The notes under the pieces: model-generated
The model's input: only the letters and a program-made list of their open reading frames with translations
Database searches by the model: none
Told to the model about the DNA's origin: nothing
Program-made: the position numbers and the translations under genes
Part shown: one piece after another, positions 6,466 to 44,378 of the stretch
How positions within the stretch are numbered: position 1 is the first letter of the stretch
Layout of the letters: every line of letters begins with the position of its first letter
From: Malus domestica
Lineage: Eukaryota; Streptophyta; Magnoliopsida; Rosales; Rosaceae
DNA: 64,000 bases
NCBI RefSeq assembly: GCF_042453785.1
Contig: NC_091665.1
Location: forward strand, 11,665,501-11,729,500
Reading direction: 5' to 3'

Positions 6466-9091
6466 CACTACTATAAAAGTGGCTTATTGAGTCAGCAGTT
6501 GGTATTAGTTTTATATAATATAGTGGCAGATTAGACATTTCCGACGGCCACTTTAAATGGTGTGGGAATTACTGTCGGTTATAACCAACATAAACTGTCT
6601 ATGTTGCTTATAACCGACATAGACTGTTAATATCGCTTATAACCAATATAGTTTTTAATCTTTTTAAATGGTGGTGTTGTATAAAAAGATAATCTTGTCG
6701 CTTTCAATCGACATAAAATTAATGTCGGTTAAAAAGAGAATCGTGTTGCTTAAACCCGACATTAATAATTATTTTAAAATATTTTAAAACTTCCTTTCGG
6801 TTGTAGCCGACAGGTTCGTATTTTTATATATCCTCTCTCTCAATAATATCAAAACCCTTTCTCTCATTTCGCTCAGCCCTCTCTCCCTTTAATATCATAA
6901 CCCTAGCTGCATCTCATTTCCCTATAATGAAAAGCCCTAGCCGCACCTCATTACTCACTCTTCTCTGCAAAAACCCAAAACCAACGAGTTTGCCATGGAA
7001 ATGTAGGCACATCTAAGCTCCAATAAGAAGCAAACTAATACTTGCTAGTTTGATTTGTGTATGAGTTTCTGGATCTGCTAAAGAAATAATGGGAAAAGGC
7101 ATAATAACATTCCAACAGCTCAGATCCGAAACAAAAAGGGTAAAAAAATCCGCTGCTGACACATGTACAGCGGCTGCAGATACAACCTAAGAAAGATGCA
7201 GAGGTCCAACAATCATAGTACTCGTCCCCAAAAGTCCGATCTCAGCTAATCTACAAGAAAGGTAATAATCTTTTCTGGTTTCCTTTCACAGATGTGAGCT
7301 CGGTGTGCATTAAATATGTATGTATATGAATGTGAACTCCTTGTTTCTAGTTGTGAGCAAAACAATGGCTGATCTGGTGTCCACAAGGGAAATGCAAGGA
7401 GTGGCTTGGTTAAATCACAATTCCAAGCAAACAAAAGGTAAGAAACCTTGTTTGTACATGTTGTAAGTTTGATCTTAAAAAATATGGCTATGTATCATGG
7501 CATGTCTCATATTTCTGCATTGTCTGTGTAGGACACTCGAACCTAGGGTATATTCGACAAAGGAAATGTTGAAGTTGCAGATCCAAAGGCAAACAAATTA
7601 TCAACTGACACATCTTCGGATCTGAAAGGTATACGCTCATCTGTGCTGAGATTTTTCTGGATCTGCAACGTGTGTGAATGGATATGGAATGCATGTATCA
7701 TTTGAAGATACATGTGGACCATTTGGAACTTGACTTTCTTTGAGAACAAAAGAAAAATCCACCTCCAAACTAAATAAATGACATGTTTTTTTTTTTTTTT
7801 CGAATGCATTAGTGATAGATCCGCTGACAACAATCGTGTTTCCTCAATAGCTCATGGTGTTGTTTACATGTTGTAAGATCCCATAGCGCCCGGGGGAGGG
7901 GAGGTGATGTGCCTTCTATGTACATGCCCACCTCCCTATAGTGAGACGCTTTTTGGGTGGAAGACCAAGAACAAAACTGTGAGGACGTGGCACAAAATGG
8001 ACAATATCTTACTATGCAGACTGGGATGTGACAATTTAGTATCAAAGCCACTCCCCGGCCGGAAGTGTGCCAATGAGGACGTCCGACCTCTAAGGGAGGT
8101 GGATTGTAAGATCCCACATCGCCCGAGGAAGAGGAGGTGATGTGCCTTATATGTACATGCCCACCTCCCTATAGTAAGACGTGTTTTGGGTGGAAACCCA
8201 AGAACAAATCTATGAGGGCATCGCCCAAAGCGAACAATATCTTACTATGCGGATTGAGATGTGACAATTTGGTATCAAAGCCACTCCTCGGCAGGAAGTG
8301 TGCCAACGAGGGCGTCAGGCCCCTAAGGGGGGTGGATTGTAAGATCCCACATCGTCTTTGGGAGGGGAGGTGATGTGCCTTATATGTACATGCCCACCTC
8401 CCTATAGTGAGACGCGTTTTGGGTGGAAGCCCAAGAACAAAATCGTGAAGACGTGGCCCAAAGCAGACAATATCTTACTATGCAGATTGTAAGATCGCAC
8501 ATCGCCCGGGGGAGAAGAGGTGATGTCCCTTATATGTACATGCCCACCTCCCTATAGTGAGACGCGTTTTGGGTGGAAGCCCAAAAACAAATCTATGAGG
8601 GTGTGGCCTAAAGCGGAAAATATATTACTACGCGGACTGGGATGTGACACTTGTGGTAGGAAACTTTTTTTTTTTTTTATTATTAATAGTTTGTGGTGTC
8701 GCTTAGTTGTTATTTTATTTATTGAATTGGTAGGTGGTGTTGGTTAGGGCCGACAATATGGTTGTTTATTTTATTTATTAAATAGTTAGGTGGTGTTGGT
8801 TAGGACCGACACTACTATCCTTTTTTAATGTCGCCTATATCTGACGTGAGTTTCAATGTCACTTTTATCCGACACCACTATCCTTTATTTTATTTTATAT
8901 TGTTTTCCTTTTTCGTGACGGATTAAGGGGACTAACCGATATCAAAAGTCTTTTCGTGACGCTAGCACTGATGTCGGTTCTTTTATCCGACATTGCATGA
9001 GTTTATGTCGAATTTTTACCTATTATCCGATAGAAATTATGTTTTCATGTCGGTTTTTGGACTGCCAGTTATAGGTAATTTTGTAGTAGTG
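6466..9091. mobile_element. CACTA (En/Spm) element, non-autonomous, 2.6 kb
   Basis: Ends CACTACTATAAAA (left) and TTTTGTAGTAGTG (right) with a 3-bp target duplication TCG (6463-6465 and 9092-9094). Many subterminal copies of a GTCGGTTATAACCGACAT-like motif lie at 6575-6790 and 8740-9060, as expected for transposase-binding repeats. The middle carries exon-like blocks with GT-AG borders (for example 7351-7437 and about 7532-7628) but no transposase frame. A tandem TRIM array is nested at 7872-8649. Confidence 0.85.
7872..8649 (+). mobile_element. Tandem TRIM array: four LTRs, two internal domains
   Basis: Four LTR copies start TGTAAGATC: 7872-8033, 8105-8266, 8338-8487 (end-truncated) and 8488-8649. 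Full copies are exactly 162 bp. Between the first three are two 71-bp internal segments (8034-8104 and 8267-8337) that start with TTGGTATCAAAGCC-like primer-binding sites (initiator tRNA-Met type) and end in a G-rich polypurine tract. The outer flanks CATGT/CTTGT are a near-matching 5-bp duplication. Sequence and 71-bp interior resemble the Cassandra element at 21753, but the 5S-like part of the LTR is missing. Translated frames here are incidental. Confidence 0.85.
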
Positions 9092-35663: not shown

Positions 35664-36424
35664 TCATTTAGTACTACGGTTTATCAATATTCTTCTTTAT
35701 TTGTAAATGAGAGGTCCTAAGTTCAATTCTCACTAAATAAGAATTTAAATCATATTATTGCTAAACCATTGTGAGGCTAAGTCATCATCTCCCTTTAGGG
35801 TGCGTTTGTTGCGCCGGACTGTCTCGGACTGGACTAGCTGCCGGGACTAAGCTGGACTGGCTTAGACTGGACTAAGCTGGACTAACTTAGTGAAGCGTTT
35901 GGTGCAGTCTCGGACTAAGAAGCAGGATAAGAAAAACAGTACTGTTCACCAGATTTGTGTTTGCTTAGACTAGAACTACAAATTGTTGCCATTGTGTAAT
36001 AGAGTAATGCTACAAATCTCATGATATGGGTTAATTGGAGCATATTTTTGCCATGTATATTATGAATCTTAAAAAAAATTGACAATTGTTTTGTTTCTAT
36101 TACCTGCTAATAGAATTGGGTTTAATTTGCAAATGTAGCTTGATTTAAACTCTATCACCCAACAGAAGAAAAATAATAGTGGCCAATACATGCAACTTCA
36201 ACAAATACAAGTACATAAGATCTCCATAATTTAGAAAATCCTAGTTAACATTAGTTAACATTAGCCAAAATAGATCTCCATAATTTACAAAATGGCTAGT
36301 TAACATAAGCCAAAATACTAGTGCAAAGCTAAGTTATAAGTCATAACATAAGATTGTATGATTAATAAAATACATCCATGTTAACGTTAATAAAATACAT
36401 CCATGTTAACATTAGCCAAAATCC

Positions 36425-37415
36425 TCATCCGTTTGCGTTGTCGCTTAAAAGCCTTTGGACGAACACTTTCTTGAGTTCCGGTTTGATTGCCCTGAACACT
36501 CCCACATTTTTTGGTTTATCCAAAATAAGAGACAATGCATCAATTTGATCCATAGGAGAGAGACCCATTGCTTCAAGTTCATTAGCTATGTCAGTATGAT
36601 CTGCAGTACCTTGAACTAAAGCTTCAGTTACCATTTGCATCCTCTTCCCACTTTCAACATAAAAATCTTTCAGTCCACTGATAAGTGCCTCGGTTCCATC
36701 ACTTGAACTTCCCACAACTCTTTTCCTCTTTCTTTGGCTATTTTCAGATGGGGTGCTTTGTTGGCTTTGTTGGTTCATTGAAGAAACAAAATTTTCACCT
36801 CCAATATCACTTTCACCAACATGATCATGACTTTGTTCCTCCACCATTTGAGCAGGGGTTTCGGCTACATTACCTGTAGCCCGATCTTTTCCAAATATAT
36901 ATGCAAATCTATCAAACAGTGGAAAAGGTTTGCTTCTCCATCCATCGGCTTCTTTATTTCTCTAAGATTATATCAACATAGCAAAACTAAAATTTAGCAT
37001 GCGTAACAAATATAGCAGCAAGAATATAACTAATGCATAAATAAAATAGGATATGAACCTGCACATAAGTTTGCCATGCGTCATCACTGTCAACTTCAAC
37101 GCACTTTTTGACATCATTCCATGCAAATCCACTTGTGTTTATCATGTCAACGACCATACTATATGTTTTTTTCCATTTCTTCAACTTGGACTCAATATGT
37201 GGATTTGCCTTTATATTTGAATGAGGACATAAAACATTGACAGCTTTTGCTATTTCAACCAAAGTACCTTGTTTGAAAGCACCGGTGTCACACCGTTGCT
37301 TCCGAGCAACAAAATCCTCAAGAACTCCTAGTAATACTTCTTCCTCAAATGCTTCCCATTTACGCCTTCTTCCTTTTGGCTCTTGAGTAGCATTCAAAAT
37401 ATTATCGTTATCCAT
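36425..37415 (-). CDS. Harbinger ORF1: Myb/SANT-like DNA-binding protein
   Basis: Partner protein of PIF/Harbinger transposases; it helps recruit the transposase to element ends and the nucleus. Two exons, 37415-37059 and 36961-36425, joined in phase 0 at YVQ|RNKEADGW, give 297 residues. The Myb/SANT-like domain covers about residues 15-135: RRKWEAFEEEVLLGVLEDFV, then IESKLKKWKKTYSMV and GWRSKPFPLFDRFAYIFGK. A basic KRKRV motif looks like a nuclear signal. The C-terminus is the usual variable helical tail (SPMDQIDALSLIL). No frame defect. A short 20-bp tandem repeat lies upstream, between it and the transposase end. Confidence 0.88.
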
Positions 37416-37461
37416 ACCTAAACAAAAAATATTTTAATGAAGGAAAATACCATACAAATAA

Positions 37462-37550
37462 TCAATTTGCATAATATCCAATCAACTTGCATAATATCCA
37501 ATCAACTTGCATAATATCCAATTAATTTGCATACCATCCAATCATTGTGC
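37462..37550. repeat. 20-bp tandem repeat, about 4 copies
   Basis: Unit 'ttgcataatatccaatcaac' repeated with decay, in the spacer between the two Harbinger genes. Confidence 0.8.
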
Positions 37551-37690
37551 TAATATCTAACAAATGCATGATAAAAAGGAATACTAAAATAAAATGTTAT
37601 CATTAAAACATATAGCTAGTTCGGTTGCTGGTTCCTAATTGCTCTCCACTCATTATACATTTCCTGAGCCATATCATTCCTCATTGCAGT

Positions 37691-38997
37691 TCACTGGTCC
37701 GATGTTTGAACACTACCAACATATTCACCTTCTTCTGTATTTTGTCCATCTTCTATTATTGGCAAATTCTCCATTGGATCTACTGACATCTCTTGCCTAA
37801 TAAGATTGTGTAGTAGGCAACAAGCGGTAATTATTCGACCTTGTGTCCTTATCGGATAGAAAGATGGACTCCTTAGTATCGACCACCTTCCTTTTAGCAA
37901 GCCAAAACAGCGTTCAATTACATTCCTTGCCTTAGAATGCTTCATGTTAAAATATTCTTCCTTATTAGAAGGTGTTCGTCCCTCCCATTCAGATAAATGA
38001 TAAGGTATTCCTCTATAGGGTGCAAGGAATCCTTCACCATTTGTATAACCACCATCTACAAGGTAATAACAACCTAATGAAAAAAAAAACAGACCTTATT
38101 AGTGTTTTGTAGTTGACAAACAGAACTAAACCTAACTTACAAAGTTGAGACTAAGTAATAGTCTTACCCGCTGGTACCTTAAAACCATTAGGCCTACTAA
38201 TCGCATCATGTAGCACTCTAGAGTCTGATGCGGAACCCTCCCACCCCGGAAACACATATATGAACTGCATATCTCCTGAACACACACCTAACACATTAGT
38301 TGCGACTCGACCCTTTCTTGTTCGGTATCTTGGTTTGTCAATTTCAGGTACATGCACATCAATGTGTGTTCCATCCAATGCTCCCAAGCAATTCTTAAAA
38401 ACCAAAAATAATAAACTTTTTGTTAATTTATACAAAGGGAATGAAGAGTTAAAGCTTAGGGAAAATGAAAAAAATTTCTCATCATACCTTAAAACATCGC
38501 CACCTAGCATCTGTAGAATCAATAGGCACAGGCTGGGGGACTTTTAGTAGGGTACCTTGTAATCGCAAAATTCCTTGCAATACGCTATTGAAATACCTAC
38601 TTATAGTCTCTCCCGACCTATAAAATCTACCGCCAACACTACGATTCTTAGTATGATGTGCTAATATTTGTAAAGTCATACACACCTGTTCCTCTACAGA
38701 CACCAAACCATCAGTTTTTACCCTCCCATCTTGACGAAGTAAGTCGCATAATATGCCAAAAGTCCTTCTATCCATTCTCAATTCGTTAACACATTCAGTA
38801 TCAGTATTCCCTATTATACCATTCAGATAACACAAACTAATCTCTCGTCTAATAAGTGAACGGTTAGTCAATGTGGGTCGTTCAACATGTCTCTGTTTGC
38901 CACGTAGCATCATCACCACAAGAATCGTACAAATACAAATTGTCTCCAAATAAGACATCTCTAACAATAAGATCAATAAAAGCTTCCTTCGATCCAT
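37691..38997 (-). CDS. PIF/Harbinger transposase (DDE_Tnp_4, HARBI1/ALP1-like)
   Basis: Catalyses cut-and-paste transposition. Exons 38997-38488, 38393-38168 and 38073-37691 with GT-AG introns give 372 residues. N-terminal HTH-like region: [18 protein letters not shown]. Catalytic triad intact: Asp177 (GALDGTHID), Asp227 ([10 protein letters not shown]) and Glu299 ([15 protein letters not shown]). The frame ends at TGA 37693-37691 after QTSDQ. Reading through gives about 24 more family-like residues (RNDMAQEMYNEWRAIRNQ) to a TAG near 37616, so the TGA probably replaces a conserved TGG. The catalytic core is complete; whether the shortened protein works is unknown. Start chosen at MDRRK; an upstream in-frame ATG (39024) adds a few Phe-rich residues. 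Confidence 0.88.
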
Positions 38998-39041
38998 ATC
39001 TATCCAAACAAAAAAAAAAAACAATAAACAAATTAACTAAA

Positions 39042-39525
39042 TCATTAACCCGAGGCAACAAATATACATATGGCGTTGAAAAAAAAAAGTTATCATTAAC
39101 CCGAGGCAACAAATATACAGGTGGCGTTGAAAAAAAAAAAAGTTTTCATTAACCCGAGGCAACAAATATACAGGTGGCGTTGAAAAAAAAAAAATTTTCA
39201 TTAACCCGAGGCAACAAATATACAGGTGGCGTTGAAAAAAAAAAAGTTTTCATTAACCCGAGGCAACAAATATACAGGTGGCGTTGAAAAAAAAAACTTT
39301 TCATTAACCCGAGGCAACAAATATACAGGTGGCGTTGAAAAAAAAAAATTTTCATTAACCCGAGGCAACAAATATACAGGTGGCGTTGAAAAAAAAAAAG
39401 TTTTCATTAACCCGAGGCAACAAATATACAGGTGGCGTTGAAAAAAAAAAACTTTTCATTAACCCGAGGCAACAAATATACAGGTGGTGTTGAAAAAAAA
39501 AAAGTTTTCATTAACCCGAGGCATC
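39042..39525. repeat. 52-bp minisatellite in the Harbinger element
   Basis: Ten occurrences of CATTAACCCGAGGCA spaced about 52 bp (39044, 39095, 39147 ... 39509). Each unit is a conserved block 'aacccgaggcaacaaatata' plus 'ggtggcgttg' and a poly(A) run of variable length. Just upstream (in element sense) of the transposase start. Near-identity of copies points to recent expansion. Confidence 0.95.
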
Positions 39526-39740
39526 ATATTCAAAATGTTCTACTCTTATACATCTATAAACATGTGTCTAAGAACACTAGTATGAGGATTGCTATCATTG
39601 CTAGGCATTGCATGTGAAAAGGGAAATTAAAGGACACCTGTAATGCAGTAGCCTTAGCCTTAGCCTTCCGTTTATGCTCCTCTTCTCTGCAACCAACAAC
39701 CACAACAAATTGCAATTCAGCATCAACCCCACACAATACA

Positions 39741-41128
39741 AAACATTCACATTGTATACACACTGCATACATACACACTGCAAACACAGTACATACATAC
39801 ACACACTACATACACTGCATACACTACACACACACTACATACACTACACACACACACTGCATACATACACACTGCAAACACAGTACATACATACACACAC
39901 TCACATACACTACACACACACACTACATACACTACACACACACCCTGCAAGTACACACACAATGCATACATACATACACACACTGCATACACCCTGCATA
40001 CACCCTGCATACATACACACTGCATACACAGTACACAAACACACACACTGTATACACCTTGCACACACAGTACACAAACACACACACACTACATACACTA
40101 CACACACACACTGCATACACTACACACACACCCTGCAAGTACACACACAGTGCATACATACATACACACCCTGCATACACCCTGCATACATACACACTGC
40201 ATACACAGTACACAAACACACACACTGCATACACCTTGCACACACAGTACACACACACTGCACACACACACACACTGCATACACACTCATTCACACACAC
40301 ACTGCACACACACACACTGCTTACACACTGCACACACACACACTGCACACACACTCACACTCACTCACACTCACTACATACACTACACACACACACTGCA
40401 TACATACACACTGCAAACACAGTACACTACACACACTACATACACTGCATACACTACACACATACACACTTATTCACACACACACCGCACACACACACAC
40501 TGCTTACACACTGCACACACACACACTGCACACACACTCACACTCACTACATACACTACACACACACACTGCATACATACACACTGCAAACACAGTACAC
40601 TACACACACTACATACACTTCATACACTACACCCTGCATACATACACTACACACACACTGCATACATACACACTGCAAACACAGTACACTACACACACAC
40701 ACTACATACACTACACACACACACTGCATACACTACACACACACCTTGCAAGTACACACACACTGCATACACCCTGCATACATACACACTGCAAACACAG
40801 TACATACATACACACACTACATACACTGCATACACTACACACACACTACATACACTACACACACACACTGCATACATACACACTGCAAACACAGTACATA
40901 CATACACACACTACATACACTACACACACACACACACACACACACACACTACATACACTACACACACACACACACTGCATACACTACACACACACCCTGC
41001 AATACACACACAGTGCATACATACATACACACACTGCATACACCCTGCATACACCCTGCATACATACACACTGCATACACAGTACACAAACACACACTGT
41101 ATACACCTTGCACACACAGTACACAAAT
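39741..41128. repeat. CA-rich (TACACA-type) satellite array, 1.4 kb
   Basis: Almost entirely C, A and T on this strand, built from 'cactgcatacac', 'cacagtacac' and 'actacatacac' words in a higher-order pattern (for example the block around 39790-39900 recurs near 40780-40920). Long open frames on both strands are a consequence of the missing stop words and not genes. Confidence 0.95.
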
Positions 41129-41751
41129 GACACCGTAATCTTATATTATTACATACGAATCGAATAAATTCAAGATACAAGATCTTTGGACCAATTTTAT
41201 GAATCAATATTCTGTTAAACGTCCTTGATTCGGTATCAATTTCCTAAGACACATAAAGCAGAATAATAGAGCAACAGAGTAAAACCAGAACTCAAACTAA
41301 TCAATCGTGCCTCAAGAAGATCTCCCTATTTAGATCATATCACCAGATTCACCACATCCATTTCTACCAAATATCACGATGCAGACTATCCGTTCCAAAC
41401 CATTAACGTAATCCGAATGAAACACTCAAAACCAAGAGCGATGCACACATCTAAACATAAAGTTGATAAAAATCTCAACATTAAAGAACCATTTCAACTA
41501 TATTGGCATAGAAGAAAAACCAAACGTCTGTGTGTGTGTATACATATGCAACTCAACCACTACATTCCTCATCGAAACTTTTGATTCGTTTATAAAATTG
41601 AACAAACAACAATTACCAAAATCAAATTAATCCGAATTCCAACTAATAAACAACCTAATCAAATCATACATCGATCAAGCAAACCAATCAAATCTCCACA
41701 ATTTCCATCAATAATTTTCAATCAATGGATTTGATTAGATCCAATAAATAC

Positions 41752-42043
41752 CTAAACAGATCCAACGATGATATTGTTGATGGGGATGAAGATCAGCTTG
41801 ACGAAGAACCCGACGAAACCCATCACGACGAACCCGATCGCTGTCCGGAGCGCGACCTTGGAGAATTCTACACGACAATCAACCATCAAATCTCATCAAT
41901 TACACATGCATATCAAAGAATATAACTTGTGAGAAAACACAGATCCGACCCGAATGCTGAATTACCTTTGCGATCGGGCTTGTGGCAGCGCTTGACGAGG
42001 CGAATGCTGTCCTTGGAGAACTCTCGGAGCAGATCTGTTACGT
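41752..42043 (-). pseudogene. SEC61G: SEC61-gamma (translocon subunit) gene fragment inside the transposon
   Basis: SEC61-gamma is the small tail-anchored subunit of the ER protein-translocation channel. Two exons with intact splice sites: about 42043-41966 ([20 protein letters not shown]) and 41867-41752 ([20 protein letters not shown], then [18 protein letters not shown] and TAG). The intron GTAATT...GTGTAG is retained and the join restores Glu in phase. Nearly the whole 69-residue protein is there, including the membrane anchor. The first 5-6 codons with the ATG are not recognisable; in-frame sequence upstream ([11 protein letters not shown]) has no Met nearby. It lies within the Harbinger TIRs, in the same orientation as the transposase, so it is best read as gene capture that kept the intron (DNA-level). 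Confidence 0.85.
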
Positions 42044-42590
42044 GAAGACGAGGGAGCGGACGACGAGAGGAACAGATGAGGAGCAGGATGCAGATGAGGG
42101 CGACCAGGATGCAGCTGACGGCGAGCAGGACGCAGAGATGAGGATGAGGAGGACGACGTGAGGGAGGAGGTCTTACGAATCCGGACGTTTTTGGGGTGGT
42201 TCGCTAAGAACTGCTAGCGAAGGGTTTAATCCGTGCGAGTCGGATCTAATCCCATTAAACGTAATCCTTGCCCCTACCAAACATCAGACTACAATACCAA
42301 TTAGTGTAGTCTAGTCCAGTCCCCCCTAAGAAGGTCAAACAAACACGCCCTTAGTGTAATATCGTTTATTAGGAAAAGAAAAAAAAAAAGGTACGCAAAG
42401 CAAAGGAAGGGAATCCACGTACACACCACACCCAAAGTCTCCTGCCTGGCGGTTCTGCACCAAAACCGTAGCCCATGAATTCCCGAACAAAACATCCCAA
42501 TAGATACAAATCGACAACAAAAATCCAAAAGCCATAAGAAACCCACATCATTAAAATCATCCTTAATTCGGTTCTGCTAATCATACGATA

Positions 42591-44378
<1,788 letters not shown>

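Follow-up and report, generated by a model that had tools for sequence, protein, structure and literature searches.

Capture of host gene pieces by PIF elements has already been reported in grapevine, maize, and rice. The grapevine Pifvine-3 elements have long 5' regions matching host exons and introns, some of which are common to multiple copies (PMC2528002), and Pack-TYPE elements of the PIF superfamily have been described in maize and rice (PMC8903248). Going by the available text of these two reports, such capture is less rare than was held in an earlier sequence-only reading of the DNA considered here, which regarded it as much less familiar than capture by MULEs, CACTA elements, or Helitrons. 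With regard to the routes of capture, hybrid formation between neighbouring Pack-CACTA elements has been described, and it has been stated in the same source, in the part available, that DNA elements may capture unlinked gene pieces by a mechanism yet to be discovered (PMC13317346). In the literature searched, no report combined SEC61, transposon, captured, and Harbinger.

Set against the available parts of these reports, the present case is an unusually complete example of the grapevine kind. It was found in a window of 64,000 nucleotides of Malus domestica (the whole stretch that was analysed, C5:11665501-11729500), and consists of a PIF/Harbinger element of 6553 bp (window 35798-42350, with its genes on the minus strand) that carries a piece of a SEC61-gamma (SEC61G) gene. 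Like Pifvine-3, it is a PIF element with a long host-matching 5' region outside ORF1 and the transposase. It differs from the account of Pifvine-3, as far as the available text of that account goes, in that a before/after pair can be compared, donor splice signals are joined into the leader intron, and the ORF state of the copies can be given (PMC2528002). The captured coding DNA lies between the terminal inverted repeats (TIRs) of PIF/Harbinger elements, as it does in the PIF Pack-TYPE elements. In contrast to these, which are defined as non-autonomous in the portion of the report at hand, the present elements bear a transposase (PMC8903248). Moreover, since any element with a transposase hit is, by the same portion, assigned as autonomous first in the Pack-TYPE pipeline (PMC8903248), this pipeline would not list the present case as a capture. 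In having captured and multiplied parts of a host gene, the elements resemble Pack-MULEs and the ULP-bearing (KAONASHI) MULEs, and they share with the latter a capture inside elements that retain the transposase gene; however, they belong to another superfamily, and according to the available text the ULP of the grapevine MULE lies downstream of the transposase, whereas SEC61G lies in the leader (PMC2528002, PMC13317346). What appears unusual here is the splice-compatible join inside elements with open transposition genes.

The features of the element are as follows, with positions in the window:

35795..35797, no strand, target site duplication (TSD) TTA, left
35798..42350, minus strand, whole PIF/Harbinger element (TSD TTA/TTA, terminal similarity, sister copies with their own TSDs)
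36425..37415, minus strand, ORF1, Myb/SANT-like, two predicted exons (Myb_DNA-bind_3, 1.1e-9)
38997-38488, 38393-38168, and 38073-37616, minus strand, transposase gene, three predicted exons (Pfam DDE_Tnp_4; frames)
39638..39686, minus strand, predicted 49-bp leader exon of the element (both of the siblings examined have it as well)
39687..41751, minus strand, predicted chimeric intron, composed of the 5' part of a donor intron and the GT-rich intron of the element (GTATTT at 41751, TTGCAG before 39686)
41126..42035, minus strand, segment captured from the SEC61-gamma gene on C6 (aligned to L026 in 911 columns with 97.6% identity)
41752..41867, minus strand, SEC61G exon 2 with stop codon TAG (Pfam SecE)
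41868..41965, minus strand, SEC61G intron 1, 98 bp, GT-AG
41966..42035, minus strand, SEC61G partial exon 1, from codon 9
42036..42350, minus strand, 5' end of the element and its own leader (common to siblings without SEC61G)
42351..42353, no strand, TSD TTA, right

The element exhibits the hallmarks of the PIF/Harbinger superfamily: TIRs, 3-bp TSDs (mostly TTA or TAA), a DDE_Tnp_4 / Plant_tran transposase, and a second ORF with a Myb/SANT domain (Myb_DNA-bind_3 at 1.1e-9). At the termini, 11 of the first 13 bases are alike and a GGACTGGACTAG block is common to both, while beyond that the likeness is imperfect. The SEC61G piece, the transposase, and ORF1 are co-oriented on the minus strand, the latter two being downstream. 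Two arrays that vary among copies lie upstream of the transposase, apparently in leader introns, namely a 52-bp tandem array at 39042-39523 and a long GT/CA-rich array at 39748-41118.

The observation of SEC61-gamma in the element is confirmed. The captured piece is 910 bp long and comprises partial exon 1, intron 1, exon 2, and the 5' part of the next donor intron. As had been read from the sequence, two exons with an intact intron (98 bp, GT-AG) join in phase, end at a stop, and lie upstream of and co-oriented with the transposase. Joined, the exons encode 61 residues, which hit Pfam SecE with 6e-14 and SEC61-gamma chains of solved structure with 3e-27. These are equivalent to residues 9-69 of the donor protein (69 residues in all), which bears out the statement that only the first few codons (eight) are missing; codon 10 is Leu in the element copy versus Pro in the donor. 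The range first assigned to the capture-carrying element, 41752..42350, does contain the SEC61G exons, but the captured segment reaches 41126, and the stretch 42036-42350 belongs to the leader of the element itself.

The donor gene lies on C6, from an ATG at 3540711 to a stop at 3540404, and encodes an intact SEC61-gamma of 69 amino acids. Its match to the element runs about 620 bp past the SEC61G stop to 41126, in a stretch that reads as intron (GTATTT ... TTGCAG). The ohnolog of the donor on C16 encodes an identical intact 69-aa protein and matches the element over a shorter stretch, at 76%. The start codon, the first eight codons, and the promoter of the donor are absent from the captured segment. 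Donation of a promoter to the element, which had been put forward, is rejected, because the segment begins at codon 9, within coding exon 1. The retention of intron 1 and of part of the next intron likewise leads to rejection of a processed (mRNA) origin. A further SEC61G-like paralog, with two exon-sized matches at 86-88%, is seen at C17:688711-689073.

A search of the genome by the SEC61G segment alone (16 of 16 first-look candidates scored) placed it in 13 elements, a number to be read as a lower bound, as are all repeat counts of this search method; the same search otherwise returned the C6 donor, the C16 ohnolog, and partial C17 matches. Considering the 13 copies and the donor locus, the presence of SEC61G in the element is not a matter of chance. 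The parental locus and the copies with and without the insert, which had been proposed as a check, were thus located (the C6 donor, 13 copies, and at least five siblings), and an unlinked donor with the intron retained, together with copies with and without the insert, marks the case as gene capture (transduplication).

The SEC61G junction is intact in all 12 copies compared besides the window copy. Over 910 positions they show 0-6 differences from the window copy, and the mean pairwise difference is 0.36%. Identical 3-bp TSDs flank 11 of the 12 SEC61G copies read at both ends, the exception being L009 (TAA/TAG); L012 stands outside this count, as its match ends at 36981 with the far end unread. 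Among the siblings, identical TSDs were found in all four read at both ends (L025 is without a 5' end). Across copies and siblings the TSDs are mostly TTA or TAA, with ATA, TAG, and TCA in four. Comparison of the 5' flanks (1200 bp) of the 13 copies gave only three weak pairwise matches (72-82% over 88-177 bp), and this weak likeness, as far as 5' flanks go, fits independent insertions.

In a tree of 16 of the 18 copies (no outgroup; L012 and L014 were left out, the shared region being cut in both), the SEC61G copies are split from the siblings by 22 fixed differences, with an ultrafast bootstrap of 100%. The divergence in this set is 1.13% between SEC61G copies and siblings, and 0.51% within the SEC61G copies.

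Some copies have undergone further changes. An insertion of about 3 kb at window 36173 is present in seven of the 12 SEC61G elements reached there: L009, L013, L014 (1976-5036), L016, L017, L019, and L020. Its ORFs resemble by eye a Myb/SANT-type accessory protein and have no Pfam match. The insertion fits the tree poorly, with L016 and L017 clustering with copies that are without it, and its uneven distribution hints at exchange between copies. In L012, an interruption starting near 6761 (element orientation) looks by eye like a LINE reverse transcriptase. L014 has lost the transposase by internal deletion while keeping both ends and matching TSDs, and is a non-autonomous derivative in the making.

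The state before the capture is represented by the five siblings (L021-L025), whose leader is the same as far as base 42027 and which lack SEC61G. The 324 bp from 42350 to 42027 align at 98.5-99.7% in four of them; in the fifth, L025, of which the 5' end is missing, the leader aligns over 288 bp at 98.6%. Past the break, the siblings continue with a short leader-exon end, GTAAGC, an intron of about 500 bp, and a similar GT-rich stretch. The siblings retain both the leader-exon end and the GTAAGC intron start at the break, which shows that these are what SEC61G displaced in the hybrid. When the leader was searched for in the own genome (651 Mb, 19 contigs), the best 40 of 449 candidates were scored, which makes the sibling counts lower bounds. 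Among these 40, the leader match at ten more places is in two pieces, ending at query 276 (window 42027), and eight more diverged matches begin only at query 334-360; as these do not extend to the break, they are uninformative on it.

At this junction, both the donor and the sibling have GATCYGCTC, a match at eight of nine bases. The hybrid retains the T of the element; therefore, the switch lies in or beside the exact 4-bp match GCTC, and codon 10 was turned into one for Leu. Taken alone, a 4-bp exact microhomology would be weak evidence for the switch. The other junction is in the GT-rich intron, and its motif, TGTGTACTGTGTGTGCAAGG, is found once, further inside, in each of the five siblings.

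From these observations, it is very probable that the element captured the 910-bp piece of the C6 SEC61-gamma gene with replacement of part of its leader, and that the hybrid then spread to 13 loci; the earlier interpretation, capture by one PIF/Harbinger element, is thereby supported. We infer that a break or gap arose inside the element, and that repair synthesis probably switched to the unlinked SEC61G at GCTC and would then have switched back in the GT-rich intron. Replacement of the leader-exon end and the first-intron start in this way would leave a hybrid leader with a full set of splice signals. Since the transposition genes were untouched, the hybrid kept moving and reached its 13 loci.

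The timing of the capture may be estimated with C16 as the outgroup. Of 900 sites, four changes fall to the element and 13 to the donor, the latter number being inflated by a short misaligned indel stretch; three sites are unpolarised, and five columns are indels. The element-side change is in line with the 1.13% to the siblings, and fits a capture at or after the sibling split. The divergence from the C6 donor (21/905 for the window copy, with a mean of 2.5%) exceeds that to the siblings. Therefore, the assembled C6 allele is perhaps not the captured one, and the extra change on the donor side suggests that a different allele was copied.

At the target site, a query made of the two flanks with one TTA between them matches 39 other places at 77-82% (best 40 of 2302 candidates). 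The junction, at query base 131, is crossed by all 39 matches, in 38 cases by at least 17 bases. Because the joined flanks match uninterrupted repeat copies, the element landed as a unit in a dispersed repeat. A universal-stress-protein-like gene at window 42591-42815 (Usp 4.5e-4, below the Pfam cut-off) starts about 240 bp from the 5' end of the element, the insertion being in its upstream region. The neighbouring gene has a homoeologue on C10, where the SEC61G-segment genome search gave no match. A stretch of about 1.5 kb upstream of this homoeologue likewise gave no match to the element leader, the ORF region, or the sibling intron. The left flank is seen there only as a weak 44-bp match, and the locus is not a clean empty site; with the left flank hardly recognisable, it is taken as supporting evidence only. 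The sequence-only reading had held that an orthologous full-length SEC61G gene at this site, in relatives lacking the transposon, would refute capture. This was tested inside the own genome, in which repeats cross the joined site and C10 has no SEC61G.

The coding state of the transposition genes varies among copies. In the window copy, the transposase frame is cut short by a stop at codon 373 (of 398), and ORF1 is open. By stops and frame, the transposase is open in nine of the 13 SEC61G copies, ORF1 in ten, and both in seven; the corresponding numbers for the siblings are five of five (transposase) and four of five (ORF1). The transposase exons are present in 12 of the 13 SEC61G copies, and only L014 is without them, so that the group does not have the constitution of Pack-TYPE elements in the strict sense (non-autonomous, no transposase gene). 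Judged by open frames alone, the capture-bearing elements look able to mobilise themselves, unlike the stripped Pack-type elements.

The SEC61G frame is open to its stop in all 13 copies, and the protein is the same as that of the window copy in ten of the other 12, the exceptions being L019, with three amino-acid changes, and L015, which differs at codon 9. A base-by-base comparison of the 186-nt SEC61G coding part with the window copy covered 11 other copies (L015 was read apart): nine are identical, L014 has one silent change, and L019 has three changes, all altering the protein.

A reading of the sequence finds the splice signals for a SEC61G-transposase fusion leader. The predicted pre-mRNA, which was modelled for the window copy and L018, would consist of the element leader, SEC61G exon 1', SEC61G exon 2, the 49-bp exon of the element, and the transposase; in L010 the 49-bp exon differs. 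In the leaders of two siblings (L021 and L023), two short upstream ATGs are located close to the terminus; the predicted hybrid transcript gains from its SEC61G exons one upstream ORF (uORF) of 23 codons. The stop shared by this ORF and SEC61G is 51 nt before the transposase ATG in that transcript. The SEC61G frame is open upstream to 42203, and after the last in-frame leader stop it contains no ATG, which makes a near-complete version of the truncated translocon subunit suggested by the sequence-only reading unlikely. Its suggestion of dsRNA also finds little room, since the fragment is sense to the transposase, and transcription from the 5' end of the element would give no antisense.

Two alternatives concern the origin of the arrangement. 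That the ends of the element are only partly alike past the first 13 bases would suit two separate elements, or one MITE end, flanking an ordinary SEC61G gene that lost its start. However, the same segment is present in 13 elements, with the junction in place in 12 besides the window copy, 11 of the 12 copies whose two ends were read have matching TSDs, and many uninterrupted places align with the joined flanks (best 40 of 2302). With the TSDs, the joined-flank matches, and the copy number all opposed to them, the two-element and disrupted-gene readings are rejected, and such an origin can hardly be correct; the matching TSDs in the window and in sister copies indicate one Harbinger element, as had been assumed, rather than the ends of two. 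It is also quite improbable that, rather than by template switching, the hybrid arose when two nearby elements on either side of the host gene were joined, even though this route is described for Pack-TYPE elements in the available text of PMC13317346. Both junctions are internal to the element, with the leader exon on one side, and the intron and both ORFs on the other. The 9.9 kb around the donor contained nothing similar to the leader, the ORF region, or the sibling intron (using queries without repeat arrays). Moreover, the joining would need elements inside SEC61G exon 1 and the next intron on one haplotype.

A third alternative concerns the role of the captured exons, which might be useful to the element or the host, either as a selected leader or uORF tuning the transposase, or as a source of small RNAs against SEC61G. 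The 13 SEC61G copies versus at least five closely matched siblings, the frame open in every copy, and the protein as in the window copy in ten of 12 others would be consistent with this. On the other hand, the copies (0.36% apart on average) are too young for frame conservation to imply selection, and the SEC61G frame is without a start ATG after the last in-frame leader stop; such usefulness therefore appears rather unlikely. We infer instead that the leader region accepts foreign DNA and that SEC61G is tolerated there as a passenger, without being a selected gene. An altered transposase output due to SEC61G is possible. It is a doubtful proposition, to be held tentatively, that the captured exons form the transposase-mRNA leader in a self-mobilising Harbinger lineage, with a uORF of the C-terminal membrane segment changing the output of the transposase. 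If true, the capture of a gene would in this case rewire how the element itself is expressed, and would not yield a passive passenger.

Capture by template switching, as preferred above, can be examined further in this genome: with the donor, the siblings without SEC61G, both junctions, and 13 young descendants all in one genome, the route of capture is testable. Moreover, captures inside transposase-bearing elements may be under-counted, in that a transposase-first classifier, as described in the available text of PMC8903248, files them as plain autonomous elements.
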